Of a stretch of 38,013 nt of DNA, positions 1,426 through 38,013 are shown piece after piece. The translations under genes and the position numbers were made by a program. The DNA comes from Candidatus Jettenia ecosi (GTDB taxonomy: Bacteria > Planctomycetota > Brocadiia > Brocadiales > Brocadiaceae), in NCBI GenBank assembly GCA_005524015.1, contig SULG01000026.1:1-38013 (forward strand), written 5' to 3'. The stretch's first letter is position 1. Each line of letters opens with the position of its first letter. A model generated the notes under the pieces. It was given only the letters and a program-made list of their open reading frames with translations, was not told the DNA's origin and searched no databases.

Positions 1426-1587
1426 ATGTCACAAATTGACGATAAATACCAATTAATGAGGTATGAGTTAAATATCAACGTTCCGGGTGATATGGATTAC
1501 GCAGTTTTGGAAGAGAAGGGAGAGGTAATTATATTGGGATCATTTTCCATTCATAAAGAGTCTGTAATTTCTCTCGATAGAGACTGA
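1426..1587 (+). pseudogene. short frame running into an IS630 copy, possible interrupted gene
   Basis: An ATG-initiated 53-codon frame reads MSQIDDKYQLMRYELNINVPG and onward to a VLEEKGEVIILGS stretch. This part has the look of ordinary protein. The last 15 or so codons lie in the 3' end of the minus-strand IS630 transposase gene. I infer that the insertion cut a real gene near 1530-1540. No continuation was found on the other side of the element, and no family is recognised. Confidence 0.3.
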
Positions 1588-2546
1588 TATTGTGAAAGAA
1601 GTTTAAACACGTTGTCTTAAATCTCTGATACGTCTCATAATATTTGTAATAAAGGGTTTTTTCGTAAAAGAACCTCCAGACTCTCTCGATAAGATTTAAA
1701 TTGGGAGAATACGGAGGCAAGAACAGAAGCTGTATTCGGGAATTCTTTACATACTCTTGTACTGCTTTTGCCCGATAATAGCGAGCATTATCAGCAATAA
1801 CATACAGATTAGATGCCTGAGGATTTTCTCCTCTGGAGTTCTTTCAGAAGGTCTATGGTTGATTGTGCATGAATGCTCTTGTCTTCTCTCAGAATGATTT
1901 CGTGAGTTTCTGTATCAAGTGCTCCGTTGAGGTTTATCCGTTCTCTGCCGGTGTTGGTCGGCAGTTCTTTGGTTGTCCCTTTCTCTATCCATGAGTAAGC
2001 GGGCGGAGAGTTGTAGTGAGGATGAACGCCATCGATAAAGAAGATTTTCTCTGAAGGTAACTTTGTTTCTTTGAGGTGTTGATACTGAGCAAGAAATTCT
2101 TGTTGTGCTTGTGGATTTGCTTTGCCAGGAACTGGAGTGGTCTTTTTATAGACAAATCCGAGTCGGTAAAGAGCATGTACCATCCTTTCTGGGGTATAGC
2201 TTACTCCAAAGGTTTCTCTGACATACGCTCCAATCTCTTTTGTAGTACGATAGAGATGAGTTCTCAGGTGTTCTCTTAAGAGTTCTTCTTGTTTGAAAGT
2301 AAGTTTCGCTACGCATCCCAGATAGTTATCAGAAAGAAGACTCTCTAATCCCTTGGACTGATAAGTTGTTTCATAAGTTCTGATTGTTTGGTTGTCTCAT
2401 AAGAGTGCTTCTGCTACTTGCTCATAAGTCCATCCTGAATCGAGAAGAAGGATGGCTTTAATCCGGTCTGCGGTACGGCGAGATCGTTCTTTCTTGTGTA
2501 CTCTTCTGAGCTCTTTGCGCTGTTCTAAACTCAAAAAATCTTTCAT
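1529..2546 (-). pseudogene. IS630-type transposase, broken by stop and frameshift
   Basis: Read on the minus strand from the ATG at 2546 this is a nearly whole IS630-family transposase. The N-terminal helix-turn-helix region (MKDFLSLEQRKELRRVHKKE and onward) is interrupted by an in-frame TGA at about 2397-2399. The DDE domain begins in FFIDGVHPHYNS, where D is the first catalytic residue. A frameshift near 1810-1830 separates the part ending LLKELQRRKSSGI from the next frame, which carries the second catalytic Asp (LYVIADNARYY) and the glutamate (PPYSPNLNLIERVW). The gene ends at 1529. Both lesions argue for an inactive copy. Matching terminal inverted repeats were not found, so the outer limits of the element are unresolved. 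Confidence 0.85.
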
Positions 2547-2624
2547 ACTTTTATGGATAACAGATGTTTATGGTATTCGTAAGGAATTTTTTACTTATTT
2601 TCGAAAAATAGGTGCTTTTGACTA

Positions 2625-2658
2625 TAACAAAGGCAACTCATATGAGTTGCCTTTGTTA
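2625..2658. terminator. 34-bp perfect palindrome, likely terminator
   Basis: Perfect inverted repeat with half-site TAACAAAGGCAACTCAT. It lies 18 bases after the stop codon of the minus-strand secreted-protein gene. The hairpin could terminate that gene and insulate it from the IS630 remnant. The T-tract is modest, so rho-independent termination is likely rather than certain. Confidence 0.6.
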
Positions 2659-2676
2659 TTTCTGATCTTCCAGGGT

Positions 2677-2955
2677 TTATTGGTGCCTGTGATGGCAATC
2701 GCATCTGCAATCGCCCTCTGGCTGAGACGGTATGTGTTTACACTTCTCACACTTTTCTTCCTTCTGCCCTTCTGCCTTTCCTCCTTCTTTCCCCCCTTCC
2801 TTCTTTCCCTCCTCTTTTGCTACATCCTTTCCATCTGGCTGAAGAACTTGATAGTGTTGTGCTACAGCAGAGCTACTAAAAGAGTTATTTACAACAACGA
2901 TACTAAATATCAGTGCGCCTACAATAGAAAAACTTAAACCAAATTTTTTTAACAT
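2677..2955 (-). CDS. small secreted Lys/Gly/Glu-rich protein with Cys/His tail
   Basis: A 92-residue protein with a strong ribosome-binding site (AAGGAGG, 7 bases before the ATG). Residues 1-33 form a signal peptide: basic MLKK start, hydrophobic GLSFSIVGALIFSIVVV core, and likely cleavage after AVA. A charged low-complexity stretch follows (residues 45-68, repeated Lys, Glu and Gly). The tail contains CEKC, then CRCDCHHRH, i.e. five Cys and three His, which suggests metal binding or disulfides outside the cytoplasm. It is not a c-type cytochrome because no CxxCH is present. It has a transcription unit of its own with a palindromic terminator. Function unknown. Confidence 0.7.
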   Translation of the reverse strand: MLKKFGLSFSIVGALIFSIVVVNNSFSSSAVAQHYQVLQPDGKDVAKEEGKKEGGKEGGKAEGQKEEKCEKCKHIPSQPEGDCRCDCHHRHQ

Positions 2956-3470
2956 TTTTCCGCCTCCTTTTTAAATTGTTAATGAAAAAATTCAGTAAGG
3001 TACGAAAACACTTTCACAAACTTGTAAGGTTTTCCATAGTAAATTTATTGTGACACTTTGCCGTAAGAGTAGCTTTGCTGCACAATATTTACACCTATCA
3101 GCCTCAATTTTAGAAGGAAATACCTGATTTTATTTTATAAAAGATGATTATCTCTTACATGTTGCAACACCACAAGAATTCTTTTATTAGAGAAACTCTT
3201 CGTGGTATTAAAAAGCAACATTCATGCCAATAAATTTTAATAACTTTTGAACGATAAACACACATTTATGAAATGAAGAAATAGTTCTAAAAATTTATTT
3301 TACAATTAGTTAGATTTTGATATGAATAGATAGGGGCAGTAAGTTGTAAAGTTTGAAAGATGTGGCATGGCACACATATGCATTGCAAAAAAGCGTGACA
3401 TGGCACACCGTGAAAGAAGAGGAATCCTGAGTCAACAGTAAGGAATAATTAAAGAAAGAGGTGTTCTTCC
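2956..3470. promoter_or_regulatory. 515-bp intergenic region upstream of tdh
   Basis: AT-rich divergent region between the secreted-protein gene and tdh. It holds two exact copies of CATGGCACAC (3366-3375 and 3399-3408), 33 bases apart. These could be operator half-sites for the tdh-kbl operon. No convincing sigma-70 promoter or RNA gene was found. Confidence 0.35.
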
Positions 3471-4499
3471 GTGAAGGCTATTGTTAAAACAAAACGTACA
3501 AGAGGTATGGAATTTGTGGAAGTACCTGCTCCAAAGGTAGGGTTAAAAGATGTACTGATTAAAGTAAAGGTTGCTTCTATTTGTGGTACAGATGTGCATA
3601 TTTTTGACTGGACACGTTGGGCGCAACACCGTTTTCTACCACCTCGTATTATAGGCCATGAATTCGTTGGAGACGTAATAAAGATAGGTGGTGAGGTTAC
3701 CCAGGTAAAGATTGGAGATCGTGTTTCGGCTGAGAGTCATCTTATCTGTGGATATTGTTATCAGTGTAATAACGGCTATTCGGAGGTTTGTAAAAATTTT
3801 AAGCTGTTGGGAGTTGACCATGATGGCACCTTTGCCGAATTTCTTGTCTTGCCTGAACATGTCTTATGGAAAAATGATTCCCATATTACGGATGAATGGG
3901 CAACTATTCAGGAGCCTTTTGGAAACGCTGTTGATACCGTTTTGGCTGAGAATGTTTCGGCTAAGACTGTTTTAATTCTTGGGGCTGGACCAATTGGACT
4001 TTTTGCTACGGGTATTGCCAAAGCTTGTGGCGCCTCACTCATTATCATTTCTGATCCTAATGATTATCGGTTAGCTATCGGTAAGAAAATGGGAGCACAT
4101 AGTATCATTAATCCCAGAAAACAAGATGTGGTCCAAACTGCTCTGGAGGCTACAAGAGATAATGGAATAGATGTAGTTCTGGAATTTTCCGGTAACAATC
4201 AGGCTCTAAACCAAGGTTTAAAAGCTATCACGCCCGGAGGAAGGATATCTATTTTGGGCATTTATGAAAGGCAGGTACATATCGATTTGAATAAGGATGT
4301 TATCTTTAAAAAGATACGTATTTATGGGATTACTGGTCGCAAGATATTCTCTACGTGGTATAAGACATCACGTTTTTTATCTTCCGGCCTCGTTGACCCA
4401 AGCCCCGTCATTACTCATCAATTTTCACTAAAAGACTATGAGAAGGGTATGAAACTTATGAAAGATGGAAGATGTGGAAAGGTTATTTTAAAAATGTAA
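3471..4499 (+). CDS. tdh: L-threonine 3-dehydrogenase
   Basis: Zinc-dependent medium-chain dehydrogenase that oxidises L-threonine with NAD+ to 2-amino-3-ketobutyrate in the cytosol. Its 342 residues match the family length. The catalytic zinc Cys38 sits in CGTDVH with His43, GHE is at 62-64, and the structural zinc cysteines fall at 93, 96, 99 and 107 (CGYCYQC, then C). The Rossmann GAGPIG is at 171-176. The start is GTG, preceded by AGAGGTG. kbl, which consumes the unstable product, begins 17 bases downstream, so this is the classic two-gene threonine degradation operon. Confidence 0.95.
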
Positions 4500-4516
4500 A
4501 AGGAGCGATATGTATC

Positions 4517-5692
4517 ATGGATAAACTTGATTTTATTACTGAAGAACTTGACAGGCTTAAGGAAACAGGACTATTAATCCATATCCGTACCATAGAGGGA
4601 CCGCAAGAATCGTGGATTATGGTAGAGGGAAAACGGGTATTAAATCTTTGCTCAAATAACTATCTTGGGTTTGCCAACAATCCCAGATTAAAGTTAGCTT
4701 CACAAAAAGCTATTGAAACTTACGGTGTAGGGCCAGCAGCGGTAAGAACTATTGCTGGTACGACACTACTGCACAAACAATTGGAACAAAAGCTTGCACT
4801 TTTTAAGGGGGTGGAGAGCGCTTTATCCTTTCAATCCGGATTCTGTGCAAACCTGGCTGTTATTCCTGTAATTGTTGATGAGGGTGATGCTGTCTTTTCA
4901 GATGAACTTAATCATGCGAGTATTATTGATGGGTGTAGGTTATCAAGGGCTAAGATTATACGATATAAGCATGGTGATCCACAAGACCTTCGGGTAAAGG
5001 TATCCAATGAGAAGAGTGCTATGCGTAAGTTTATTATTACCGACGGGGTTTTTAGTATGGAAGGTGATATTGCACCCCTGCCGGAAATTGTAGAGATCGC
5101 CGAGGCTTTTGGTGCAATTACTATGGTAGACGATGCCCATGGAGAAGGTGTTTTGGGACGAGGTGGCAGGGGTGTTGTTGATCATTTTGGTCTACATGGC
5201 AAAGTCGATATTGAGACAGGTACCATGTCAAAGGCATTCGGGGTGGCAGGTGGTTATGTTGCAGGAAAGAAAAAGATAACAGATTACCTGTCACAAAAGG
5301 GACGCCCATTCCTTTTTTCCAGCGCTGTTGCATCCGCCGATGTAGCAGCTTGTATTGAAGCTGTGAATATCCTCAGTACTTCAGATATATTCGTTAAACA
5401 ACTTTGGAATAACACTGCATTTTTTCAGCAGAAAATGAAACATGCCGGATTTGACCTTGGCTGCACAAGAACACCTATTACTCCTGTTATTATAGGAGAT
5501 GCTAAGAAAGCTAAAGATTTTAGCCAAAAATTATTTCAAGAAGGGATCTTTGCCCAGGCTATTGGTTATCCTACAGTACCTATGGATAAGGCGCGCATTC
5601 GTGTAATGCTTTCCTCTGCACACAATCAGGATGATCTTACCTGGGCAGTGGGGTGTTTTGAGAAGATTGGAAAGTCTTTAAGCGTATTATGA
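4517..5692 (+). CDS. kbl: glycine C-acetyltransferase (2-amino-3-ketobutyrate CoA ligase)
   Basis: PLP-dependent alpha-oxoamine synthase that splits 2-amino-3-ketobutyrate with CoA into glycine and acetyl-CoA, completing threonine breakdown started by Tdh. The 391 residues show the N-terminal NNYLGF motif (47-52), His133 in ELNHAS, the DDAH cofactor motif (205-208) and the Schiff-base lysine K239 in TGTMSKAFG. The ATG at 4517 is chosen because AAAGGAG lies about 11 bases upstream. An earlier in-frame ATG at 4472 lies inside tdh and adds residues that match nothing in the family. Confidence 0.95.
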
Positions 5693-5778
5693 GGAATAAA
5701 AAGTTGATTTTTTGAAGAAGAACGTTTAACATAAAATTTTATTAATTTTCATAAATCTTTAATTTTTAGGTGCCTTAC

Positions 5779-25522: not shown

Positions 25523-26407
25523 ATGAATCTTAAAATGGCCATATTATCGATCCTGGGAAGAGATACGCTAAAGCGTATTATCCTCGATTTTAAACTGAAA
25601 AACATTAACCTCCGTAGCAAGAAGAAGATGTGTGAGGCTATATACAGGTTACCCGGTATACCACCAAAAACATTCCTTCGATACGTAAGCGAGTTGGAAG
25701 CTAAAGCAATGTGTGAATACTATGGTATCGTAGATAAAGGAAACTATACGGAGCTCATTGAGTTATTATTGCGAGAAGAAACTCAGAATATTAACCATAT
25801 TCTTCCAGATAGTGTATTTTCCAATAGAGCAATTTTATCACAACAAAATTCATATCCGGGTCTGCAGAGCTCAGTGTCGCCGGTACTATTTAAAAATGTA
25901 GAAAACCTGAATCAGCATGGTTGTTTTGTTGCGATTGATTTTGAGACCGCAGACTATGGGCGTGACAGCGCCTGTTCTATTGCACTCGTTAAAGTTCTTG
26001 GCGATCAGATTATTGACCGGGTGCAATTCCTCATTCGTCCGCCGCGTCGTACCTTTCTCTTTACCTATCTTCATGGCATATCATGGAAACATGTCGCTAA
26101 CGAACCGCAGTTCCACGAACTGTGGCCGCAGATAAATAAAAAGCTTGAAGGCGCTGAATTTATAGCCGCGCATAATGCGAGTTTTGACCGCTCTGTTCTG
26201 ATGGCATGCTGTCAGAACGCTGTTGTATCACCACCAACACTTCCCTTTCAATGTACAGTACGGCTTGCTCGCAGAACATGGAAACTTCGTCGGGCAAATC
26301 TGCCCACCGTATGTACATTCCTTGGCATCCCCTTGAAACATCACGATGCCGCATCCGATGCGGAAGCCTGTGCAAAGATCGTAATTGCAGCACGACAGGG
26401 TAAATAG
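25523..26407 (+). CDS. DnaQ-like DEDDh 3'-5' exonuclease
   Basis: A 294-residue protein with a C-terminal DEDDh exonuclease domain (about 132-294): ExoI motif AIDFET (D139, E141), ExoII HNASFDRSVL (D222), and ExoIII HHDAASDAEA (H274, D279), so all catalytic residues are present. The first 130 residues are a separate helical, basic region (RIILDFKLKNINLRSKKK) of unknown kind, perhaps nucleic-acid binding. It resembles the epsilon proofreading subunit but has no polymerase neighbour. It lies 130 bases upstream of, and in line with, the cas operon. DnaQ-like nucleases can trim prespacers in some CRISPR systems, so a role in adaptation is conceivable but unproven. Confidence 0.85.
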   Translation: MNLKMAILSILGRDTLKRIILDFKLKNINLRSKKKMCEAIYRLPGIPPKTFLRYVSELEAKAMCEYYGIVDKGNYTELIELLLREETQNINHILPDSVFSNRAILSQQNSYPGLQSSVSPVLFKNVENLNQHGCFVAIDFETADYGRDSACSIALVKVLGDQIIDRVQFLIRPPRRTFLFTYLHGISWKHVANEPQFHELWPQINKKLEGAEFIAAHNASFDRSVLMACCQNAVVSPPTLPFQCTVRLARRTWKLRRANLPTVCTFLGIPLKHHDAASDAEACAKIVIAARQGK

Positions 26408-26537: not shown

Positions 26538-26876
26538 ATGGAAGAATTCTATGCCCACTCCGCTAATTCAGAAGGCCAAAGACACAAGCTTGCTTGCCAT
26601 GTAAAAGAGGTTGCCCGGCTGGCTAATAAATTTGCTGCTGGAGAATTGGCTTATTGGGAGGGTTTGTGGCATTATGTGAGAAAACACCATCCAGCTTTTC
26701 AGGACTATTTGCGAAAATGTGAAGCAGAGCCAGGCAGAAGTCATCGGGGGTCGGCTCATAAAAGTGACGGAGCTTTACTAACATTACGGAATTTAGAACC
26801 TCTATCCTTTCTCATTACAGGTTATCATGGCATGGTAATAGATCAGGGAATCGCCGGTGGGACGTCCGTTCAATGA
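26538..26876 (+). CDS. degenerate stand-alone Cas3 HD-domain-like protein
   Basis: A 112-residue ORF that follows the type I Cas3 HD domain from end to end, then stops: YAHS opening, helix KLACHVKEVARLANKFA, EGLWHYVRKHHPAFQDYL in place of the usual GLLHDIGK...FQ.YL, then HKSDGALL, and TGYHGMVID in place of the HH-containing motif. The metal-binding Asp of the HD pair is Tyr46, the conserved Gly-Lys after it is lost, and the first His of the later HH pair is Tyr96. Nuclease activity is therefore unlikely. Its TGA overlaps the cas3 ATG (ATGA at 26873-26876), so the two are translationally coupled. It is either a dying paralogue or a repurposed accessory. The start lacks a strong ribosome site. 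Confidence 0.7.
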   Translation: MEEFYAHSANSEGQRHKLACHVKEVARLANKFAAGELAYWEGLWHYVRKHHPAFQDYLRKCEAEPGRSHRGSAHKSDGALLTLRNLEPLSFLITGYHGMVIDQGIAGGTSVQ

Positions 26877-29359
26877 AACAGGATTCAAAAGTTCGCTTTG
26901 CCGCCCACTATAGAAAATCTGACGGAGTACCCCAAAGTGTAATGGAACACCTTGAGGAGGTTTCAGCGTTAGCACGTTCATTTGCTGAAAAAATTGGATT
27001 GCCATCGTTTGGAGAGCTTATAGGACTGCTCCATGATATTGGCAAATACACAAATGTTTTTCAGACATACTTGCTGTCGGCAGTAGGCAAGCTCAATCCT
27101 GATGAAGATGAGTATGTCAATGCAAAAGGAATGAAAGGGAAGATCGACCATTCATCGGCAGGCGCTCAATATGTGTGGGAATTACTCCAGAATAAAGATC
27201 ATCTGCGACGCATAGCTGGGCAGATTATGTCCCTCTGCATAGCGTCCCATCACTCAGGTTTAATGGATTGCCTGTCACCTGACGGTATGGATGTATTCAG
27301 TAAACGCATGGCAAAATCAAAGGACAAAACACATCTTGAAGAGGCCAGAATAAAAATAGATGCATCCATCCAAAGCCATCTCAACAAATTACTTGCGCTT
27401 ACCTCCATAGAGAAAGAACTGTGCCAGGGGCTGGAATCACTTTGGTGCGGTGAGCAATCACACGAGATACACGAGTTTATGCTCGGTTTGCTTGTTCGGT
27501 TTATTTTTAGCGCTCTCATTGATGCGGATCGCTTGAACAGCGCGGATTTTGAGAACGTGACTGCAGCGAGCGAACGTTACAATGGATGCTATCTGGAATG
27601 GGGAGTCCTTATCGGAAAATTGGAGGCACACCTCGCTGGTTTTAAGGTGGGAAATCAGGTGGACAAGATACGTTCTGAAATCTCTTCGTCGTGCCTGAAC
27701 TTTGCATTCCGTGAAAAAGGCATTTTTCAGCTTACGGTACCGACTGGTGGAGGAAAAACCCTGGCAAGTCTCCGATTCGCTTTGCACCATGCGAAACATC
27801 GTAATATGGACCGCATCATTTATGTAGTACCTTACACAACAATTATAGATCAAAATGCAAGGGTCGTCCGCTCCATATTTGAGAATATTGAACACCAATC
27901 GGTAACAAGCGGCAAGCAGATCGTTCTGGAGCATCATTCGAATCTCACGCCGGAAAGAGACACATGGCAGAGCAAGATTCTATCCGAAAACTGGGATGCG
28001 CCCATTGTTTACACGACCGCCGTGCAGTTTCTTGAAACTCTTTTTGCTGCTGGTACCCGTGGGGCAAGGCGAATGCACCACCTTGCCAACGCTGTAATAA
28101 TTTTTGATGAGATTCAGACTATTCCGATAAGGACAGTTCATCTCTTCAACAACGCAATCAATTTCCTTGTCGGGCAGTGCAAATCAACGGTTGTATTCTG
28201 CACGGCTACGCAGCCCCTTCTAAATGAGGTTGATACACGCAAGGGTGCAGTGAAACTTTCTGTAAACCATCAAATAATGCCGGATATTGGCAAACTATTC
28301 AAGGATCTTCGGCGAGTCGAGGTGGACGATAAACGCAAAGCCGGAGGCTGGTCGGAGGATGATGTGGCGGAAGAGGCACAGCAAGAATTAGAGCACCTTG
28401 GCAGTGTGCTAATCATCGTCAACACGAAGGCACAGGCAAGGGAAATTTATCGGCGCTGCAAGCAGATAACGGAGGGGGTTTTCCATTTAAGCACAAGCAT
28501 GTGTCCGGCTCATCGTATAAATGTCCTCGGCAAGGTCAAAGAATGCCTTAACCCGGATAATCCCAAACCTGTGATCTGTGTTAGTACGCAATTAATCGAA
28601 GCAGGGGTTGACGTGGATTTCGGTTCGGTAATACGGTATCTGGCCGGACTCGATTCAATCGCCCAGGCGGCTGGGCGGTGCAATCGAAACGGTCTGCGCC
28701 CAACCGGCAGAGTGCTTGTTGTCAATCCGACAAACGAGAACTTGGATAAATTACCTGATATTAGAACGGCAAAAGAAAAGGCAGAGCGCATATTGGATGA
28801 ATTTCGCAATGACCCGGCCCCGTTCGATCATGATTTGCTTAGCCCGTCGGCCATGTCTCGATATTATCGTTACTATTTCTTCGACAGGGCATATGAGATG
28901 ACCTATCCAGTTACACCTCATGAGGTGGAAAGAAACGATAGCCTTTTTTCCCTCTTATCAACGAATCCCTTATCGGTTGCGGCATACAGTAGAAACAACA
29001 ATAATCAAGCTCCATCAATATCTCTCCGGCAGTCGTTTAAAACCGCAGCGGAGGCGTTTAAAGTAATCGATGCGCCCACGGAGGGTGTAATTGTGCCATA
29101 CGGTGAAGAAGGTAAGCGAATCATTGCTGAACTATTATCAGCGGCGGGTCAGTTCGAGAAGAAATATGATCTTCTTAAGGAGGCGCAATACTACTCGGTA
29201 AACATGTTTCCCCACGAAATCGTTAAACTAAAGGAGATGCGGCGTCTTCATAAAGCTCTGGAAGTGAGTGGCATCATGTATCTCGATTCCCAGCACTACA
29301 GCAATGAATTTGGAGCAAGTGTAGAACAGGTAGGATTAATGGAAACTCTTATCGCATAA
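26873..29359 (+). CDS. cas3: CRISPR-associated nuclease/helicase Cas3, type I-C
   Basis: Nicks and shreds the target DNA strand after Cascade binds. Its 828 residues have an intact N-terminal HD nuclease (H26; H54-D55 in GLLHDIGKYTNVFQTYL; H93 in DHSSAGA; HH126-127 in ASHHSGLMD). An SF2 helicase follows, with Walker A TGGGKT (291-296), box II FDEIQ (411-415), motif III TATQP (444-448) and motif VI QAAGRCNRNG. All catalytic motifs are present. Translation is coupled to the upstream degenerate HD ORF, and no strong ribosome site of its own is visible. cas5c starts 12 bases downstream. Confidence 0.97.
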   Translation: MKQDSKVRFAAHYRKSDGVPQSVMEHLEEVSALARSFAEKIGLPSFGELIGLLHDIGKYTNVFQTYLLSAVGKLNPDEDEYVNAKGMKGKIDHSSAGAQYVWELLQNKDHLRRIAGQIMSLCIASHHSGLMDCLSPDGMDVFSKRMAKSKDKTHLEEARIKIDASIQSHLNKLLALTSIEKELCQGLESLWCGEQSHEIHEFMLGLLVRFIFSALIDADRLNSADFENVTAASERYNGCYLEWGVLIGKLEAHLAGFKVGNQVDKIRSEISSSCLNFAFREKGIFQLTVPTGGGKTLASLRFALHHAKHRNMDRIIYVVPYTTIIDQNARVVRSIFENIEHQSVTSGKQIVLEHHSNLTPERDTWQSKILSENWDAPIVYTTAVQFLETLFAAGTRGARRMHHLANAVIIFDEIQTIPIRTVHLFNNAINFLVGQCKSTVVFCTATQPLLNEVDTRKGAVKLSVNHQIMPDIGKLFKDLRRVEVDDKRKAGGWSEDDVAEEAQQELEHLGSVLIIVNTKAQAREIYRRCKQITEGVFHLSTSMCPAHRINVLGKVKECLNPDNPKPVICVSTQLIEAGVDVDFGSVIRYLAGLDSIAQAAGRCNRNGLRPTGRVLVVNPTNENLDKLPDIRTAKEKAERILDEFRNDPAPFDHDLLSPSAMSRYYRYYFFDRAYEMTYPVTPHEVERNDSLFSLLSTNPLSVAAYSRNNNNQAPSISLRQSFKTAAEAFKVIDAPTEGVIVPYGEEGKRIIAELLSAAGQFEKKYDLLKEAQYYSVNMFPHEIVKLKEMRRLHKALEVSGIMYLDSQHYSNEFGASVEQVGLMETLIA

Positions 29360-29371
29360 AGGAGGTGTTTT

Positions 29372-30064
29372 ATGAAAAACAGCGTCGAATTCAAGGTGTG
29401 GGGGCGCTTTGCGCTGTTCACTGACCCGCTGACAAAGATCGGCGGGGAGAAATGCTCCTATCACATCCCAACATACGAAGCGCTCAAGGGAATTGCCAAG
29501 TCCGTATACTGGAAGCCGACCTTTATCTGGGCAATCGACAAGGTGCGTATAATGCGGCGCATCCGAACGCAAGCAAAGAGTGCCAAACCGCTTGATTATG
29601 GGGGAGGGAATTCTCTTGCAATATACACCTATCTGACCGATGTGGAGTATCAGGTTCAGGCTCATTTTGAATGGAACCCATATCGTAAGGATTTGGCAGA
29701 GGACCGTGATACAGACAAGCATTGGCATGTTGCAAAACGCATGATTGAAAAAGGTGGACGGCAAGATATTTTTCTTGGGACAAGAGAGTGCCAGGGGTAT
29801 GTCGAACCCTGCATATTCGGAGATGGTCGGGGAGAGTATGATGGTTGCGGTGAACTGGCTTATGGTCTTATGTTCCACGGGTTCGATTACCCGGATGAGA
29901 TTGGTGAAAATAAGCTGTATAGCCGCTTTTGGCGGCCTGTGATGAAGGATGGAGTCATAACCTTCCAACACTCAGAAGAGCGCATGGTAAGGAAATTTGT
30001 TCGGGAGATGATTCCAAGGCCACCAAGTTCCATGGGGCTGAAAGAGGAGGGGCTGGAACTATGA
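29372..30064 (+). CDS. cas5c: Cas5c (Cas5d) pre-crRNA endonuclease
   Basis: In type I-C systems Cas5 replaces Cas6 as the repeat endonuclease and then caps the crRNA 5' handle within Cascade. The 230 residues begin with the ferredoxin-like NSVEFKVWGRFALFTDP. The catalytic residues described for Bacillus halodurans Cas5d (Tyr46, Lys116, His117) appear at exactly these positions here (VYW and KHWH), so cleavage activity is expected. A strong AAGGAGGTG precedes the ATG. The stop overlaps the cas8c start (ATGA). Confidence 0.96.
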   Translation: MKNSVEFKVWGRFALFTDPLTKIGGEKCSYHIPTYEALKGIAKSVYWKPTFIWAIDKVRIMRRIRTQAKSAKPLDYGGGNSLAIYTYLTDVEYQVQAHFEWNPYRKDLAEDRDTDKHWHVAKRMIEKGGRQDIFLGTRECQGYVEPCIFGDGRGEYDGCGELAYGLMFHGFDYPDEIGENKLYSRFWRPVMKDGVITFQHSEERMVRKFVREMIPRPPSSMGLKEEGLEL

Positions 30065-31983
30065 GCTGGATAGAGAAGCTATACAGGACATATGAAAATT
30101 GCATGGTGCACATTGGCGATAATAATGATGAAGTCCCATTGTTGCCAGTATGTCACACGACTCAGAAGGCGCATGTAACCATAGTCATTGATGGAAAGAG
30201 CAATTTTTGCAGAGCCTATATCGTTCCAAAATCGGAATCTCGGACAATAATTCCTGCAACGGAAGAGTCGGCAGGGAGAACAAGCGGAACCACACCGCAT
30301 CCTCTGTGTGACAAGTTGCAGTATGTCGCATCAGACTATCTCAGATTTGGAGGTGATAAGGAAGCCTGTCATGAAATGTATTTTGTTCTATTGGAGAAAT
30401 GGTTTAATACCGATAAAAATCATCTAAAGTTAAAGGCTATTTATGAGTATGTAAAAAAAGGACACGTCATTGATGACCTTGTTAAAGCAGGAATTCTATA
30501 TGTGACCCTCAGCGACGGTAAATCGATATTGATGAATCAATGGCGGGACAAGGATAATATTCCTGAAATATTTAAACTTCTTCCTGGCGGAATCGACAAT
30601 AAGGGCAAAAGCAGGCCGTGGCAGGCTGATGCATTTATTCGGTGGTCAGTTGAAATATCCGGTGACCCTCAAGCAGATGTTTGGTCAGATAAATCATTAT
30701 GGGAGTCATGGCAAAGCTATTACGGAAATTTCAATCCAGTGAAAGGCCTATGTTATGTGACTGGTATGGAAAATACTTTAGCCGACCAACATCCTGCCAA
30801 GATACGTAATGATGGCGACAAGGCAAAGCTAATTTCTTCCAATGATCTCACCGGGTTTACTTTTAGAGGACGGTTCGTGTCCTCCGACGAAGCTTGTGGT
30901 GTTGGTTTTGAGGTAACGCAAAAAGCGCATAGTGCACTTCGCTGGCTTATTGCCAGACAAGGCCGAAGGGATGGTGATCAGGCAATTGTGGTTTGGGCTG
31001 TTTCAGGTTCGGAAGTTCCTGACCTCTTAGCTGACACGTATTTTCTCGTGTTTGGTGGTGACCAAGAATTGGCTTCAGAAGTTACAGGATATACCGCACA
31101 AGAAGTCGGAGTTGCTTTTTCAAAACTTATAGCAGGTTACTCCGCAAAACTTGGTTCAACCGAAGACATAGTGGTCATGGGGCTTGATTCAGCTACGCCA
31201 GGTCGAATGGCCATCACTTTTTACAGAGAATTAACCGGTTCGGAACTGCTTAAGAGGGTGCAGGCATGGCACGAAGGGTGTGCCTGGCTCCAGAGATTTG
31301 GCAAGGGCAAAATCTTTGTTGGAGCGCCCTCGCCACGCGACATTGCTGAAGCGGCTTACGGCAGACGCCTTGATGAAAAGCTCCGGAAGGCAACTATTGA
31401 ACGCCTGCTGCCCTGTATTGTTGATGGGGCATCGATTCAGCGGGATATTGTAGAATCCTGTGTCAGGCGTGCAAGCAATAGAAATGGCATTGAATCATGG
31501 GAATGGGAAAAGGCACTCGGAATAGCGTGCGCTCTTTTTAGAAAATTACATGAAAAGGAGGGCTATAGTATGGCATTAGATGAGAGTCGTAAAACAAGGG
31601 ATTATCTGTATGGCAGGTTGTTGGCATTAGCAGATAGTTTGGAGCAATGGGCTTTAAGTAAGGCTGGTGAAGATAGGCCAACAAATGCTGCAAGGTTAAT
31701 GTATCGGTTTGCTGATCACCCTTACAGCACTTGGCGGACTATAGAGCTTTCACTTGCGCCTTATAAAGCTAGATTGGGGGGGCAATCTCAGAAAAGGCAA
31801 GCATTGATTGATAAGGTACATAGTCTGTTTGACCCGCCAGAAGATTACACCAGCGATAAGAAATTGAGTGGCGAATTCCTGCTCGGGTACCATTGTCAGC
31901 GGGCCGCGCTTTGGAAGGGTAAGCCGGACCCAAACGACGCAAATACTGATAGAGATGCAGAAGGCGATGAGGAAGAAATTTAG
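30061..31983 (+). CDS. cas8c: Cas8c (Csd1), large subunit of type I-C Cascade
   Basis: Large subunit that recognises the PAM and helps open target DNA. The 640 residues start MSWIEKLYRTYENC and show the Csd1 pattern (e.g. PHPLCDKLQYVASDYLRFGG). The ATG at 30061 overlaps the cas5c stop, which favours it over an upstream in-frame ATG at 29929 lying inside cas5c. The C-terminal 137 residues are also made separately as Cas11c from an internal start. The sequence ends in an acidic tail (DPNDANTDRDAEGDEEEI). Confidence 0.95.
   Translation: MSWIEKLYRTYENCMVHIGDNNDEVPLLPVCHTTQKAHVTIVIDGKSNFCRAYIVPKSESRTIIPATEESAGRTSGTTPHPLCDKLQYVASDYLRFGGDKEACHEMYFVLLEKWFNTDKNHLKLKAIYEYVKKGHVIDDLVKAGILYVTLSDGKSILMNQWRDKDNIPEIFKLLPGGIDNKGKSRPWQADAFIRWSVEISGDPQADVWSDKSLWESWQSYYGNFNPVKGLCYVTGMENTLADQHPAKIRNDGDKAKLISSNDLTGFTFRGRFVSSDEACGVGFEVTQKAHSALRWLIARQGRRDGDQAIVVWAVSGSEVPDLLADTYFLVFGGDQELASEVTGYTAQEVGVAFSKLIAGYSAKLGSTEDIVVMGLDSATPGRMAITFYRELTGSELLKRVQAWHEGCAWLQRFGKGKIFVGAPSPRDIAEAAYGRRLDEKLRKATIERLLPCIVDGASIQRDIVESCVRRASNRNGIESWEWEKALGIACALFRKLHEKEGYSMALDESRKTRDYLYGRLLALADSLEQWALSKAGEDRPTNAARLMYRFADHPYSTWRTIELSLAPYKARLGGQSQKRQALIDKVHSLFDPPEDYTSDKKLSGEFLLGYHCQRAALWKGKPDPNDANTDRDAEGDEEEI
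31570..31983 (+). CDS. cas11c: Cas11c small subunit, internal in-frame start within cas8c
   Basis: An ATG at 31570, in frame with cas8c, is preceded by AGGAGG at 31556-31561 with 8 bases of spacing, the best possible initiation context. The 137-residue product (MALDESRKTRDYLYGRLLAL and onward) is helical and matches the Cas8c C-terminus. In studied type I-C systems such an internal start makes Cas11, which lines the Cascade belly in several copies. The position and size here agree with that, so I consider it real though it is easily missed by gene callers. Confidence 0.85.
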   Translation: MALDESRKTRDYLYGRLLALADSLEQWALSKAGEDRPTNAARLMYRFADHPYSTWRTIELSLAPYKARLGGQSQKRQALIDKVHSLFDPPEDYTSDKKLSGEFLLGYHCQRAALWKGKPDPNDANTDRDAEGDEEEI

Positions 31984-32020: not shown

Positions 32021-32929
32021 ATGAATTTAACTAACAAAATTGATTTTGCAGTAGTTTTCAAGGTGAAGAATGCAAATCCGAATGGAGACCCACTGAATGG
32101 CAACCGTCCGCGTATTACCTACGATGGACTTGGCGAATTGTCTGATGTGTGTATCAAACGTAAGATTCGCAATAGGCTGATGGAAACCTTGCCTAAATCA
32201 AAAGTGAAGATTGGCAATGAAGAAAAGGAGATATGTCCTATTTTTGTTCAATCTGATGATAATAAGGTAGATGACCATCCCAGACTGAGGTCCCGTGCGG
32301 ATGCTGTGCTGTCTAATGTAAAGATTGAAAAAGATATAATTGAAACCGCATGTAAAACATGGTTCGATGTTCGGGCTTTCGGCCAACTCTTTGCCTTTAA
32401 GGGCAAAGGCTCAAAAAAGACCAAAACAAAAGAGGCTAATGAAACCGGTGATGACAAGAGCGTTTCTATCGGAATACGTGGCCCCGTGAGCATCCACTCG
32501 GCATTCAGCATTAACCCTATCAGCGTGACCAGCAACCAGATAACCAAAAGTGTCAGCGGTGAGGGTGATGGGACAAAGCGAAGTTCCGACACCATGGGCA
32601 TGAAGCACCGTGTTGACCGTGGTATCTACGTCTTTTATGGAAGTATGAACTCACAGCTTGCGGTAAAAACTGGGTTCGGTGATGAAGATGCGAATGCAAT
32701 TAAAAAAGTTTTGCCAAAACTCTTTGAGAATGATGCTTCATCGGCCCGGCCAGAAGGAAGCATGGAAGTTCTCAAGGTGATATGGTGGCAACATAACTGT
32801 GCGAGCGGACAATGTTCTTCGGCCAAGGTGCACAGAAGCTTGAAAGTCACAGACACTGATGACTTGGATACTTTGATTTCCTTTGATGCCGTGAATGGAT
32901 TAACTCCAGAAGTAATTGATGGAGTATGA
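32021..32929 (+). CDS. cas7c: Cas7c (Csd2), crRNA backbone subunit
   Basis: Polymerises along the crRNA spacer to form the Cascade backbone. The 302 residues start MNLTNKIDFAVVFKVKNANPNGDPLNGNRP, the hallmark N-terminus of the Csd2 family, and include the Gly-rich-loop fold with HRVDRGIYVF. The ATG at 32021 follows AAAAGGAGGAGG. An upstream in-frame ATG at 31868 would add residues encoded inside cas8c and is rejected. Its stop lies 7 bases before a broken cas4 relic. Confidence 0.96.
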   Translation: MNLTNKIDFAVVFKVKNANPNGDPLNGNRPRITYDGLGELSDVCIKRKIRNRLMETLPKSKVKIGNEEKEICPIFVQSDDNKVDDHPRLRSRADAVLSNVKIEKDIIETACKTWFDVRAFGQLFAFKGKGSKKTKTKEANETGDDKSVSIGIRGPVSIHSAFSINPISVTSNQITKSVSGEGDGTKRSSDTMGMKHRVDRGIYVFYGSMNSQLAVKTGFGDEDANAIKKVLPKLFENDASSARPEGSMEVLKVIWWQHNCASGQCSSAKVHRSLKVTDTDDLDTLISFDAVNGLTPEVIDGV

Positions 32930-32936
32930 CTTACAT

Positions 32937-33108
32937 ATGACAATCAATATTGATTCCATCACGATCTCTCACTTGGAAGCACTACGGTTACAGTCCGCGC
33001 CAGTGTGCCCTTATTCACGTGGAGTAGTCCTTTGATGAAAACTTGTATACCTCCGTGGGCGGGATGTTCATGAGAATGTGGATGCACCGACTTTACATTT
33101 AAGGAGTA
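32937..33108 (+). pseudogene. broken 5' end of an older cas4
   Basis: The start reads MTINIDSITISHLE, then a one-base insertion shifts the frame. Corrected, the sequence runs EHYGYSPRQCALIHVE, an in-frame TAG where the intact cas4 (34236) has a Gln codon, then SFDENLY, a small deletion, and LRGRDVHENVD. This matches the intact gene's SALEHYSYCPRQCALIHVEQ and following residues almost throughout, but with many synonymous changes and with the first cluster Cys replaced by Ser. It stops where the yhcG-like gene begins, and that gene's AAGGAG lies within the relic. It is the stump of the original cas4. Confidence 0.85.
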
Positions 33109-33112
33109 GCTT

Positions 33113-34249
33113 ATGACAAAGAGCAAGAAGTCCATCAAGACTAAATCTCCGGCAGCCACTAGTTACAATGCCATGCTCTCCGACGTCGCTGGATTGCTGG
33201 AAGAAGCCCGCCGTAACTCGGTTCGGTCGGTAAATGCGATCATGACCGTGACCTATTGGGAAATAGGACGGCGGATCGTGGAGTATGAGCAGGGCGGAAG
33301 GGGCAAGGCTGTTTACGGCGAAAAAGTTATCGTTCGATTATCCAACGATCTGACTGAACGTTTTGGGCGGGGGTTTTCCAAAAGAAATGTTGAACAAATG
33401 CGCCTGTTTTATCTTAATTGGCCAATTGCGCAGATTCCGTCTGCGCAATCCGGAATTTGTCGCACAGCATCTGGCGAATCTGGCATAGACTTATTGGCGT
33501 TGGCTGCCCGTTTTCCTCTTCTGTGGTCCCATTATGTCCGTCTTATGTCGGTAAAGAGCCAGGAAGCACGCGCTTTTTATGAAGCCGAAACCTTGCGCAG
33601 CGGCTGGTCAGGTCCCCAACTCGACCGCCAAATTTCAACTCTCTTCTACGAGCGAACTGCCCCGTCCCGTAACAAGGCTGTAATATTGAAAAAAGGAGAA
33701 AAGCCGCACCCTGAGGATGTCGTTACCCCTGAAGGGGAGATCAGGGACCCATTGATGTTGGAGTTTTTGGGACTGAAGGATGAGTACTCTGAGAGCGAGC
33801 TTGAAGATGCCCTTATCAATCACTTGGGGCATTTTCTGCTCGAACTCGGCAGCGATTTCGCCTTTGTTGGCCGTCAGCGACGTTTGCGTATCGGAGATTC
33901 GTGGTACCGGATAGACCTTCTTTTTTATCATCGGCGCCTCCGTTGTCTGGTAGTGATAGACCTCAAACTCGACAAATTCACCCATGCCGATGCCGGGCAG
34001 ATGCACATGTACCTCACCTATGCACAGGAGCACTGGACACATCAGGATGAAAATCCTCCTGTTGGACTAATCCTCTGCGCAGAGAAAGATCGTGTCCTTG
34101 CCAGGTATGCCCTGGAAGGACTGCCGAACAAGGTTTTAGCATCGGAATACAAGACGGTGCTGCCCAGGGAAAAGTCACTGGTGGCGGAGATTGACAAGAC
34201 CCGCAAGGCGCTGGAAGCAAGAAGGAAAGGAGGCGATGATGGCCGCTGA
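33113..34249 (+). CDS. DUF1016/YhcG-type PD-(D/E)XK nuclease, passenger in the cas operon
   Basis: A 378-residue protein of the YhcG-like family. The N-terminal domain (about 18-185: VNAIMTVTYWEIGRRIVEYEQ, SKRNVEQMRLFY) is helical. The C-terminal PD-(D/E)XK nuclease has D268 in YRIDLLFYH and D283-x-K285 in VVIDLKLDKF. Such proteins often travel with restriction-modification and other defence genes; the function is not settled. AAGGAG lies 6 bases before the ATG. It sits between the cas4 relic and intact cas4, overlaps cas4 by 14 bases, and looks GC-richer than cas1/cas2, suggesting acquisition together with the present cas4. Confidence 0.9.
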   Translation: MTKSKKSIKTKSPAATSYNAMLSDVAGLLEEARRNSVRSVNAIMTVTYWEIGRRIVEYEQGGRGKAVYGEKVIVRLSNDLTERFGRGFSKRNVEQMRLFYLNWPIAQIPSAQSGICRTASGESGIDLLALAARFPLLWSHYVRLMSVKSQEARAFYEAETLRSGWSGPQLDRQISTLFYERTAPSRNKAVILKKGEKPHPEDVVTPEGEIRDPLMLEFLGLKDEYSESELEDALINHLGHFLLELGSDFAFVGRQRRLRIGDSWYRIDLLFYHRRLRCLVVIDLKLDKFTHADAGQMHMYLTYAQEHWTHQDENPPVGLILCAEKDRVLARYALEGLPNKVLASEYKTVLPREKSLVAEIDKTRKALEARRKGGDDGR

Positions 34250-34862
34250 ACGTACCTCCGAACCCATCATGGTCTCTGCTCTGGAGCATTATAGTTACTG
34301 TCCACGCCAGTGTGCCCTTATTCATGTTGAGCAGACCTTTGATGAAAATCTGTACACATTGCGCGGCAGGGCGGTACATGAAAATGTTGATGTTGAATCA
34401 TCTCATCTCAAAGAGGCAGTCCGGTGTGAGCGGGCCTTGCCGATATGGTCTGAGCGACTCGGACTCGTGGGTAAAGCCGATATGGTAGAATTCCATGGAA
34501 ACGTTCCTTATCCTGTGGAATACAAATCAGGGAAACATAGGGCAGGTCATCATGAAAGCCTGCAGGTTTGTGCACAGGCTATCTGTCTTGAAGAGATGCT
34601 TAAAGTAACGGTGGAGAAAGGCGCTATCTTCTGGCATGCATCCAGAGAAAGAAAAGAAATATTCTTTACAGAAACCATGCGAAATCAGGTGGAAGAGGTT
34701 GCCTCTGCTATTCACAAGATGATGGTAGAAAGGTTCGTGCCACCCCCTGTTAATGACAAACGGTGCAGGGACTGTTCACTTAAGGAATCGTGTCTGCCTG
34801 AAGCGATACACAATAAGACCAGATACCACAGTTTAATGAAAAAGTTGTTTGTTGTGGAATAA
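34236..34862 (+). CDS. cas4: Cas4 nuclease, type I-C
   Basis: RecB-like Fe-S nuclease that processes prespacers and enforces PAM choice during adaptation with Cas1-Cas2. The first cluster cysteines are in YCPRQC (C22, C26) and the others in the C-terminal CRDCSLKESC. The nuclease core has KADMVEF and the E-x-K motif VEYKSGKH. The 208 residues are normal. ATG codons at 34236 and 34239 both follow AAAGGAGG; the second has the better spacing. The frame opens inside the end of the yhcG-like gene, so the two are coupled. Confidence 0.95.
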   Translation: MMAAERTSEPIMVSALEHYSYCPRQCALIHVEQTFDENLYTLRGRAVHENVDVESSHLKEAVRCERALPIWSERLGLVGKADMVEFHGNVPYPVEYKSGKHRAGHHESLQVCAQAICLEEMLKVTVEKGAIFWHASRERKEIFFTETMRNQVEEVASAIHKMMVERFVPPPVNDKRCRDCSLKESCLPEAIHNKTRYHSLMKKLFVVE

Positions 34863-35010
34863 CATGACAGGATAATCACAACCAAAAAAGATTTTAACCA
34901 CGAAGAACACGAAAGGCACGAAGAAAAATTTTGATTACAGAACAGCGGAGAATTACCATATGACAAAGGACGAGATAATAAACTATCGGTAAAATTAAGG
35001 AGTTTAGACA
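34863..35010. other. intergenic gap between cas4 and the MNT gene
   Basis: Holds a TTAACCACGAAGAACACGAA repeat (about 34896-34925) that is roughly mirrored after the MNT gene (TTTCTTTGTGTTCTCGGCGG, about 35364-35383). A 10-codon stub (MTKDEIINYR, 34960-34992) looks like a truncated gene start. Confidence 0.4.
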
Positions 35011-35334
35011 ATGGCTTGCCAGGAAGATAAGCAGTTAATTTATCAAATTATCAAAAAGTACCTCGATAACCTTAAAAAAAATAATATTCCTGTCTGGCGT
35101 TTGTATCTCTATGGGTCTTATGCGAAAAATACGTACCATAAAGATAGCGACATTGACCTTGCCATCTTTTGGGATAAAGACAATATTGATGGTTTTGACG
35201 AAGATGTTCAATTGATGAAGTTGACACGAGATGTGGATTTGAGAATAGAACCACACTCATTTGCCAGGACTGATTTTGACGAAACCAACCCTTATATTAA
35301 AGAAATAATCGAAACAGGTGAACAGATCATTTAA
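35011..35334 (+). CDS. MNT-type nucleotidyltransferase domain protein
   Basis: A 107-residue minimal nucleotidyltransferase. The signature LYGSYAKNTYHKDSDIDLAIFW gives GS at 35-36 and the metal-binding Asp47 and Asp49. Proteins of this type are usually the antitoxin half of HEPN/MNT pairs and can AMPylate or adenylylate the HEPN toxin. No HEPN partner is seen on either side. AAGGAG is 7 bases before the ATG. Its place between cas4 and cas1, which usually abut in type I-C loci, marks it as an insertion, possibly guarding the locus or simply a passenger. Confidence 0.85.
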   Translation: MACQEDKQLIYQIIKKYLDNLKKNNIPVWRLYLYGSYAKNTYHKDSDIDLAIFWDKDNIDGFDEDVQLMKLTRDVDLRIEPHSFARTDFDETNPYIKEIIETGEQII

Positions 35335-35405: not shown

Positions 35406-36434
35406 ATGAAGCAGCTTCTGAATACACTTTACGTAATGACCCAGGGTGCTTATCTCACGTTAGACCACGAGACGGTGAAGGTAGAGGTTGAAGGCAAGGC
35501 ACAGCTTCAAGTGCCATTGCATCATTTGGGAGCGATATTTACTCTTGGAAATGTGATGATGAGTCCATTCCTTATGCATCGCTGTACGGAAGATGGCAAG
35601 GCCATTGTCTTCCTCGATATGAATGGGCGTTTTCTTGCCAGAGTAGTTGGTAAAATAACGGGGAATGTCCTCCTCCGTCAAGCACAGTATGAGGCTGTAA
35701 GGGATACACAGAAAGCCGCATCGATTGCGAAAAATATTGTAGCCGCAAAACTACAGAATTCTCGGCAGATCCTTTTAAGGGGTGCCAGAGAGACGGAGAA
35801 CAACGAGACAGAAACACGATTAAGACAAGCGGCAACTATTTTTTCCGATACACTCATTCACCTTAAGAAAAGTAGTAACATCGATGAGACCAGAGGTTTT
35901 GAGGGTATATCAGCCAATGCCTATTTTCAGGTTTTTGATACAATGGTCAAGGAGAACAGAGAAATATTTATAATGAATGGCCGTACCCGGCGTCCACCAA
36001 AAGATCTGATGAATGCATTACTATCGTTTCTCTATACGCTACTTCTGAATGATTGCGTTTCGGCAGTGGAGGGCGTGGGGTTGGATCCTCAGATGGGTTT
36101 TTTACATGCCCTCAGGCCAGGGAGACCTTCTCTCGGATTAGATCTCATGGAGGAGTTGCGTTCGGTATTAGCAGATAGACTTGCCCTCACTCTTATAAAT
36201 CTGAAACAGCTTACCAAAAAGGATTTCGAAGAGAGAGAAGGAGGTGCGGTTTATTTAAATGAAGGGGGAAGAAAGACCGTTGTTGTTGCTTACCAGAAAC
36301 GGAAGCAGGATGAATTTACCCACGCATTATTGGAGGAAAAGGTTCCCTTTGGTCTGGTTCCTCACATCCAGGCCAGGCTCCTGGCAAGGCACACAGGGGA
36401 TATGGAAGAGTATATACCAATTTTATATTCTTAA
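35406..36434 (+). CDS. cas1: Cas1 integrase, type I-C
   Basis: Catalytic subunit that inserts new spacers at the leader end of the array. The 342 residues hold the metal ligands E166 (GFEGISANAYF), H234 (GFLHALRPGRPSLGLDL) and D246. AGGAGGG is 4 bases before the ATG. It lies 71 bases after the MNT gene and 80 bases before cas2. Confidence 0.97.
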   Translation: MKQLLNTLYVMTQGAYLTLDHETVKVEVEGKAQLQVPLHHLGAIFTLGNVMMSPFLMHRCTEDGKAIVFLDMNGRFLARVVGKITGNVLLRQAQYEAVRDTQKAASIAKNIVAAKLQNSRQILLRGARETENNETETRLRQAATIFSDTLIHLKKSSNIDETRGFEGISANAYFQVFDTMVKENREIFIMNGRTRRPPKDLMNALLSFLYTLLLNDCVSAVEGVGLDPQMGFLHALRPGRPSLGLDLMEELRSVLADRLALTLINLKQLTKKDFEEREGGAVYLNEGGRKTVVVAYQKRKQDEFTHALLEEKVPFGLVPHIQARLLARHTGDMEEYIPILYS

Positions 36435-36514: not shown

Positions 36515-36805
36515 ATGTGGGTAATAGTTACCTATGATGTTACCACCGAGACAAAAGATGGGCGTAGAAGATTGCGCAGGGTAGCCCAGGCATGTAAGGA
36601 TTTCGGACAGAGGGTTCAGAAGTCTGTATTTGAATGCTCTGTAGATCAGGCACAATTTGAGACGTTAAGGCGTAAATTACTGAAAGAAATTGATGTGAAA
36701 GGAGATAGCCTTAGATTTTACAGGTTACATGAGCCAAGGGATGAACATGTAGAAGAATATGGTATTAATAAGACAGTATTTTTCGACGAGCCTTTAATTA
36801 TATAA
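36515..36805 (+). CDS. cas2: Cas2, spacer-integration partner of Cas1
   Basis: A 96-residue ferredoxin-like protein that dimerises to bridge two Cas1 dimers. MWVIVTYDVTTE carries the conserved Asp8. AAGGAGG is 5 bases before the ATG. It is the last protein gene of the operon and ends 178 bases before the first repeat. Confidence 0.97.
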   Translation: MWVIVTYDVTTETKDGRRRLRRVAQACKDFGQRVQKSVFECSVDQAQFETLRRKLLKEIDVKGDSLRFYRLHEPRDEHVEEYGINKTVFFDEPLII

Positions 36806-36983: not shown

Positions 36984-38013
36984 GTAGCATCCAGTCTTCG
37001 GACTGGATGAGGATTGAAACCGTATCCCAATACGGCGATCTGCATTTGGAACACGTAGCATCCAGTCTTCGGACTGGATGAGGATTGAAACAAATGGTGA
37101 GTTTACTACTGACCTGACAAGCTGGTCGTAGCATCCAGTCTTCGGACTGGATGAGGATTGAAACAGGGTGAATAATGTTGATGTGACAGCAGGTGGGTAG
37201 TAGCATCCAGTCTTCGGACTGGATGAGGATTGAAACTTGATGCATGGGTTACGCCTGGTGGTGGCATATCGTAGCATCCAGTCTTCGGACTGGATGAGGA
37301 TTGAAACTGGCGGTAAGCCAGTTGTGCAGCCTCCACAATCTAGTAGCATCCAGTCTTCGGACTGGATGAGGATTGAAACTTTGAACCAGAGAACAAGCTG
37401 TAATCGGGAGGCAATGTAGCATCCAGTCTTCGGACTGGATGAGGATTGAAACAAAACACTAAGGTCTCTAATCGAAGATAGCCACATGTAGCATCCAGTC
37501 TTCGGACTGGATGAGGATTGAAACATTGACAGTATTCGGCGAATCGCCTGGGTTGCAAGCGTAGCATCCAGTCTTCGGACTGGATGAGGATTGAAACCTC
37601 TTGAACTCAAGTCTACATTGGCTGCGCTGGCGTAGCATCCAGTCTTCGGACTGGATGAGGATTGAAACGGGTTATAACCCATGTGCGTGCCGTCCGTCCA
37701 CGCGTAGCATCCAGTCTTCGGACTGGATGAGGATTGAAACTTGCATGATCTATCTCACCGACCTGGAATGTTCAGTAGCATCCAGTCTTCGGACTGGATG
37801 AGGATTGAAACTTGTTAACCTCTCCGTGTATATCCCAACTGTACGGGTAGCATCCAGTCTTCGGACTGGATGAGGATTGAAACTTTTATATTGTCATAAA
37901 AGAATATATGTAAATAGTAGCATCCAGTCTTCGGACTGGATGAGGATTGAAACATTAGCACCTGTTGCTAATGCCGCATTCGGAATGCGTAGCATCCAGT
38001 CTTCGGACTGGAT
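36984..38013 (+). CRISPR. CRISPR array, 15 repeats (last cut), 14 spacers
   Basis: The 37-nt repeats begin at 36984, 37055, 37128, 37200, 37271, 37343, 37416, 37488, 37561, 37632, 37704, 37775, 37847, 37917 and 37989; the last is truncated by the window end after 25 bases. By eye all are identical. Spacers are 33-36 nt and all different. Each repeat starts GTAGCATCCAGTC, then TTCG, then GACTGGATG, then AGGATTGAAAC. CATCCAGTC and GACTGGATG form a 9-bp perfect stem with a UUCG loop, and the final 11 bases are the expected crRNA 5' handle after Cas5c cleavage. Type I-C by the adjacent cas genes. Lack of repeat decay suggests that the window shows only the leader-proximal part. Confidence 0.99.

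Follow-up and report, generated by a model that had tools for sequence, protein, structure and literature searches.

Organization of the Locus

The window analyzed here, a stretch of 38,013 nucleotides from Candidatus Jettenia ecosi, belongs to the genome of an anammox bacterium, which also encodes hydrazine synthase. From 25.5 to 38 kb it holds a complete type I-C CRISPR locus that ends in the array, with the genes in the order exonuclease gene, 112-codon open reading frame, cas3–cas5c–cas8c–cas7c, a decayed gene fragment, yhcG, and cas4–MNT–cas1–cas2–array (Table 1). Membership in subtype I-C follows from the signature gene cas8c, found together with cas3, cas5c, and cas7c; cas4, cas1, cas2, and an array are present as well.

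Table 1. Features of the type I-C locus, in window coordinates
Feature	Coordinates	Strand	Evidence or remark
DEDD exonuclease-like gene, RNase_T domain	25523..26407	+	Pfam RNase_T, E 3e-17
Left scar: truncated 5' end of a resident cas3 from a different lineage	26538..26876	+	cas3 similarity to G022
cas3 of the incoming I-C effector module	26873..29359	+	PADLOC Cas3c, E 2e-223; 82% amino acid identity to G004
cas5c	29372..30064	+	PADLOC Cas5c, E 5e-73
cas8c, subtype signature	30061..31983	+	Cas_Csd1, E 2e-125; TIGR01863 over cut-off
cas7c	32021..32929	+	Cas_Cas7, E 9e-70
Right scar: decayed 5' cas4 stump	32955..33083	+	stop, frame changes, Cys to Ser
29-nt spacer holding the yhcG ribosome-binding site	33084..33112	+	no cas4 similarity
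yhcG: DUF1016_N + YhcG_C PD-(D/E)XK nuclease, CRISPR-linked clade	33113..34249	+	Pfam, PADLOC, tree
Intact cas4	34239..34862	+	Cas_Cas4, E 3e-27; 11-nt overlap with yhcG
MNT-type nucleotidyltransferase, antitoxin-like, resident adaptation block	35011..35334	+	Pfam; 95% amino acid identity in G001
cas1	35406..36434	+	TIGR03640 cas1_DVULG over cut-off; 96% amino acid identity to G001
cas2	36515..36805	+	96% amino acid identity to G001 cas2; position after cas1
CRISPR array; its 37-nt repeat is the same as in G001	36984..38013	+	runs past the contig end

Gene Fragments at Both Ends of the Effector Genes

The 112-codon reading frame ahead of cas3 aligns with the intact cas3 of a relative, G022, at 63% amino acid identity over 102 codons; it is the 5' stump of another, resident cas3, cut where the I-C module starts. 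DNA homology to the G022 gene stops at 26831 and homology to the I-C module of a second genome, G004, begins at 26849, placing the left junction between these two positions. The sister species, G001, retains the start of the same cas3 lineage in decayed form, cut earlier than in the window, and the simplest reading is that, within the genus, this site has seen two or more replacements of its effectors.

At the other end, the first-pass annotation had placed a decayed cas4 start upstream of a yhcG-like gene, and careful alignment confirms the similarity to cas4. Aligned locally at the DNA level, 32930–33112 and the first part of the intact cas4 reach a score of 134, compared with at most 32 for 300 shuffled sequences, with 77% identity over 130 columns including indels and 84% identity in 73 ungapped bases (32978–33050 in the stump, 34285–34357 in the intact gene). 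The stump's translation reads HYGYSPRQCALIHVE*SFDENLYT, with an in-frame TAG, a Cys-to-Ser change, and frame changes on both sides, and cas4 genes of relatives match 32956–33083. The overlap between the yhcG-like gene and the intact cas4 was also correctly called, with the cas4 ATG at 34239. The extent of the fragment needs revision: its recognizable core is only about 129 bp instead of the 172 bp claimed, and the cas4 similarity fades near 33083, about 30 bp short of the yhcG start at which it was said to end. In the spacer that follows, the ACTTT...AGGAG spacing weakly resembles that of the yhcG leader in locus L236.

The cas4 stump is a remnant of separate origin from the intact cas4. It sits directly behind the I-C cas7 in the window; G004 has matching intergenic sequence, and there the cas7–stump unit is followed by a RhuM gene, not by yhcG. 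This places the stump on the side of the effectors. The starts of many cas4 genes match it about equally well, and its donor cannot be singled out.

Exchange of the Effector Genes in Place

In G001, the DNA flanking the same site is approximately 94% identical to that of the window, Cas1 and Cas2 are each 96% identical, and the 37-nt repeat is the same. The G001 effectors are of another I-C lineage, with 31–41% identity where they can be aligned at all (Cas5, 41% over 61 aligned residues), and an S23 gene occupies the position of yhcG, which is absent. The converse case is provided by G019, with 70% identity in Cas5 but 47% in Cas1 and a repeat of 32 nt, the length found in relatives of the window's effectors. 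The contrast between these two genomes shows that the effectors moved relative to the adaptation genes and the array. With near-identical adaptation genes beside distant effectors, syntenic flanks, and its own array kept, the locus is one in which the effector module was exchanged in situ.

The inherited, resident part comprises most of cas4 along with MNT, cas1, cas2, and the array. Beyond its first 200 bp, cas4 is 97% identical to its counterpart in G001; its first 200 bp or so are only 89% identical (11% of positions differ, versus 3% in the rest; p = 1e-4). Given this divergent start, yhcG and the beginning of cas4 may have traveled together, and the stump may have been formed in a donor before the block reached the window's genome. 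Some joins, it seems, are homologous and fall within cas4.

In G004, whose effectors are 82–88% identical to those of the window, the matching sequence starts 24 nt upstream of cas3 and reaches into the cas4 stump. There the stump measures 52 bp and is fused to a residual cas7 tail from a different I-C lineage; RhuM and cas4 come next. Hence, the stump travels with the effectors, and the cas7 tail is a relic of a displaced effector set. Stumps of cas3 likewise lie on the left side of the G004 and L236 loci. The latter, a single Geobacteraceae locus present in two collections (L038 and L236), is scarred at both ends: a foreign cas3 stump lies at one end, and cas7 is followed by a cas4 stump, a second cas7 tail, yhcG, and a frameshifted cas4. 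The frameshift lies at a short repeat (L038, 8460–8530), and the locus may have no working Cas4 or may carry an assembly error there. In G022, a cas4 stump precedes an S23 gene.

Scars in Other Loci

Similar fragments recur in other loci. A cas3 5' stump lies ahead of an intact cas3 in 15 of 48 loci with readable upstream DNA, a count that leaves out five further weak hits judged by eye not to be cas3-like; for cas3, an opposite-strand control of the stump scan came up empty. In G007 (L162, 3180–3600), an intact cas3 is preceded by two stacked cas3 starts that differ in lineage. The second of them corresponds to the start of a cas3 lineage that G028 retains intact, and the junction sequence is shared. 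This stack constitutes a layered record of two successive effector replacements.

Type I-E loci tell a comparable story. In the class to which L038 belongs, Cas7e proteins with pairwise identities down to 34% precede Cas1e proteins that are 80–95% identical. In one such locus (L279, 3885–5583), the intact cas1e is preceded by the tail of an old cas6e and by a cas1e stump of 30 codons, and cas6e tails are kept in three further type I-E loci.

An Accessory Slot at the Joint

The gap between cas7 and cas4 in relatives holds an S23 gene, RhuM, DUF559, yhcG, a RAYT transposase, or nothing; at the counterpart joint of type I-E loci we find yhcG, Bro-N proteins, RAYT, DUF559, S23, or, again, nothing. 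Most accessory genes in the slot come without a stump. RhuM (PADLOC PDC-S05) is the commonest cas7–cas4 gene in I-C loci of the Desulfuromonadia (L119, L203, L204, L208–L210, L213, L214, L224, L225, and L231), and it lies between cas4 and cas1 in L216 and L226. Bro-N genes, which are phage antirepressor-like, fill the cas6e–cas1 gap in L280, L283, L288, L300, L301, and L305; two of them were confirmed by Pfam. Pairs of yhcG and cas4 also occur in L236 and, degraded, in L206. The L206 locus (1475–5728, genome G525) consists of a cas3 fragment, a truncated yhcG, an intact cas4, DUF559, and cas2, and a cas1e fragment nearby indicates a mixture of I-C and I-E pieces.

A CRISPR-Linked Clade of YhcG Nucleases

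As had been proposed from the initial reading, a PD-(D/E)XK nuclease gene now lies within the operon. Its product contains DUF1016_N and YhcG_C domains, both far above the Pfam cut-offs, and matches the PADLOC models PDC-S02 and PD_DExK (PDLC01464, CAS-associated; residues 138–283, E 1e-41). The catalytic residues D268, D283, K285, and Q296 are intact. With a dN/dS of about 0.1, estimated from pairs near synonymous saturation, yhcG is under purifying selection, and its 11-nt overlap with cas4, like its overlap of a few nucleotides with cas1e in several I-E loci, suggests that it could be translationally coupled to its neighbor. The AlphaFold model (mean pLDDT 69) gave only weak Foldseek matches to PD-(D/E)XK nucleases such as MGME1, AdnA, and SSO0001, which we leave out of the evidence, and a sequence search of the PDB with YhcG found no relative.

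Among 89 YhcG matches (L025–L113), the seven that lie near cas genes or arrays all belong to the window's clade, although some of the surrounding DNA stretches are short and more distant CRISPR links could be missed. The sisters of the window's protein are found in type I-E loci. Across 277 genomes of one class, all eight YhcG matches of at least 76% identity sit at the effector–adaptation border, seven of them directly before cas1e, whereas none of the 23 matches of at most 47% identity adjoins the same cas1e. The CRISPR-linked proteins form one clade (support 99/94, recovered in all 200 bootstrap trees with close outgroups included), within which the three I-C members cluster together (91/79). 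Each of its 10 members is located at the effector–adaptation border, before cas4 in I-C and before cas1 in I-E. The nearest outgroup proteins with readable context (L317 and L318) lie between genes that we named, by eye, hsdM-like and hsdS-like, in type I restriction operons.

The gene is found in seven of 38 genomes with the same Cas1e. In type I-E, YhcG and Cas1 identities showed no correlation that would indicate co-inheritance, Cas1e being too uniform.

Discussion

Our analysis revealed a cas3 stump and a cas4 stump bounding a swapped set of effector genes, adaptation genes and an array that stayed in place, and like scars in relatives. We consider it probable (about 0.78) that the region marks the place where effector modules of a type I-C locus were exchanged in situ, a scarred joint now occupied by an accessory nuclease gene of the CRISPR-linked YhcG clade. 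In this model, a foreign I-C set comprising cas3, cas5, cas8c, cas7, and the first codons of the following cas4 would have recombined into the resident operon, with the left join inside the first 110 or so codons of the resident cas3 and the right join connecting the start of the donor's cas4 to the accessory gene and cas4 of a second locus. Only joins that preserved a single intact copy of both cas3 and cas4 would have survived selection, and each of these would therefore leave a useless 5' stump. The scars in the other loci would likewise be accounted for by non-homologous joins, of which selection kept those leaving a single intact copy of every gene. We infer both the order of events and the non-homologous nature of the joins, and adjacent scars could stem from separate events.

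The first-pass annotation had offered a different account, in which the resident cas4 gave way to a yhcG–cas4 block acquired from another I-C locus and survives only as the stump. Its central idea, recombination between diverged I-C loci, holds, and the account agrees with the divergence of the first 200 bp or so of the intact cas4 and with the yhcG–cas4 pairs of L236 and, in degraded form, L206. The unit that was swapped, however, is the whole effector module, as the effectors differ from those of G001 at the same site and have the resident cas3 stump at their left end. The stump itself lies on the effector side, with RhuM rather than yhcG behind the equivalent unit of G004, while most of the intact cas4 and everything from MNT to the array is inherited. 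We regard this account as improbable. Still less credit is due to a mobile-cassette model, in which yhcG or some other gene of the slot inserts close to the cas4 start and reconstitutes cas4, the stump being what remains of the former 5' end. The succession of stump, accessory gene, and intact cas4 is indeed seen with yhcG, RhuM, and S23, but the same behavior would be required of three unrelated genes, most accessory genes in the slot lack a stump, and the leftover cas7 tails and cas3 stumps require effector exchange regardless. We rejected a cassette of this kind after finding neither a recombinase nor a shared border repeat. Least probable of all is a misassembly that joined two strains of a metagenome bin. 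Although the genome is a draft of 223 contigs with 3% contamination, the same I-C cas7–stump unit is present in the independent genome G004, overlaps and reading frames are intact, and similar arrangements exist in another phylum.

What might the nuclease contribute at this position? The data support a retained gene for a predicted nuclease, tied to the adaptation genes. We lean slightly toward a self-standing DNA nuclease directed against invaders, akin to the YhcG proteins of type I restriction operons and expressed together with the adaptation genes. More doubtful is the alternative that YhcG is a nuclease of the adaptation module, which would cut or trim invader DNA into prespacers, be translated with cas4 in I-C or cas1 in I-E, and be kept with cas1–cas2 through repeated effector exchange. 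In that event, type I-C loci would have two PD-(D/E)XK enzymes, YhcG and Cas4, and in I-E, which lacks Cas4, YhcG would take its place. Its presence in a minority of the genomes with the same Cas1e and the unrelated genes in the same slot mean that its position, possible translational coupling, and purifying selection do not demonstrate an adaptation role. Because unrelated genes occupy the slot, the association of yhcG with the border may also be one of hitchhiking. A direct part in making prespacers is possible yet rather unlikely, and a carried defense nuclease is likelier than a spacer-acquisition factor.

In domains, length, and catalytic residues, the protein resembles the YhcG/DUF1016 family at large (PF06250, PF17761; PADLOC PDC-S02). 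Unlike the wider family, its clade resides at the effector–adaptation border of CRISPR loci, whereas the nearest outgroups with readable context reside in type I restriction operons. The match to the CAS-associated PADLOC model indicates that some CRISPR link of such proteins had been recorded before, although that model specifies no position, subtype, or clade. A search of the open literature found no paper on YhcG or DUF1016 in CRISPR loci. Given that this branch has so far been seen only at the joint, in two subtypes, a role in adaptation or defense is straightforward to test.

Replacement of effector modules in situ with a fixed adaptation module is established, and swaps within a subtype, in which effectors are replaced while adaptation genes, repeat, and flanks stay, have been described (Hudaiberdiev et al. 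2017, PMC5704561; PMC6452270; PMC12669027). In the published Cas4 tree, subtype I-C is monophyletic and compact (PMC5704561); here, lineages within I-C were exchanged. Such shuffling is usually inferred from trees and synteny. In the loci described here, the joins can be read directly as 5' gene stumps and cas7 or cas6e tails, sometimes layered, and they give the position and, in part, the order of the exchanges. The joint is, in addition, marked by a crowded accessory slot in which a few defense-like genes settle. What is new, then, are the paired gene-fragment scars, the stacked cas3 stumps of one relative, the cas1 and cas6 scars of type I-E, and the crowded slot. The mosaic joins of phage genomes, which arise by non-homologous exchange and are kept by selection, are alike in lying near gene starts and leaving gene fragments; the present case concerns a chromosomal CRISPR operon.

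Two flanking genes deserve mention. The DEDD exonuclease-like gene just upstream of the operon belongs to a resident left flank shared with G001, where it is kept in synteny at 84% amino acid identity; elsewhere, prespacers are trimmed by exonucleases of a DEDD-like kind. Between cas4 and cas1, G001 and G004 have a HEPN gene ahead of MNT, forming a HEPN/MNT toxin–antitoxin-like pair. In the window (34950–35010), about 313 bp are deleted relative to G001, which reduces HEPN to approximately its first 12 codons and leaves its MNT partner intact.
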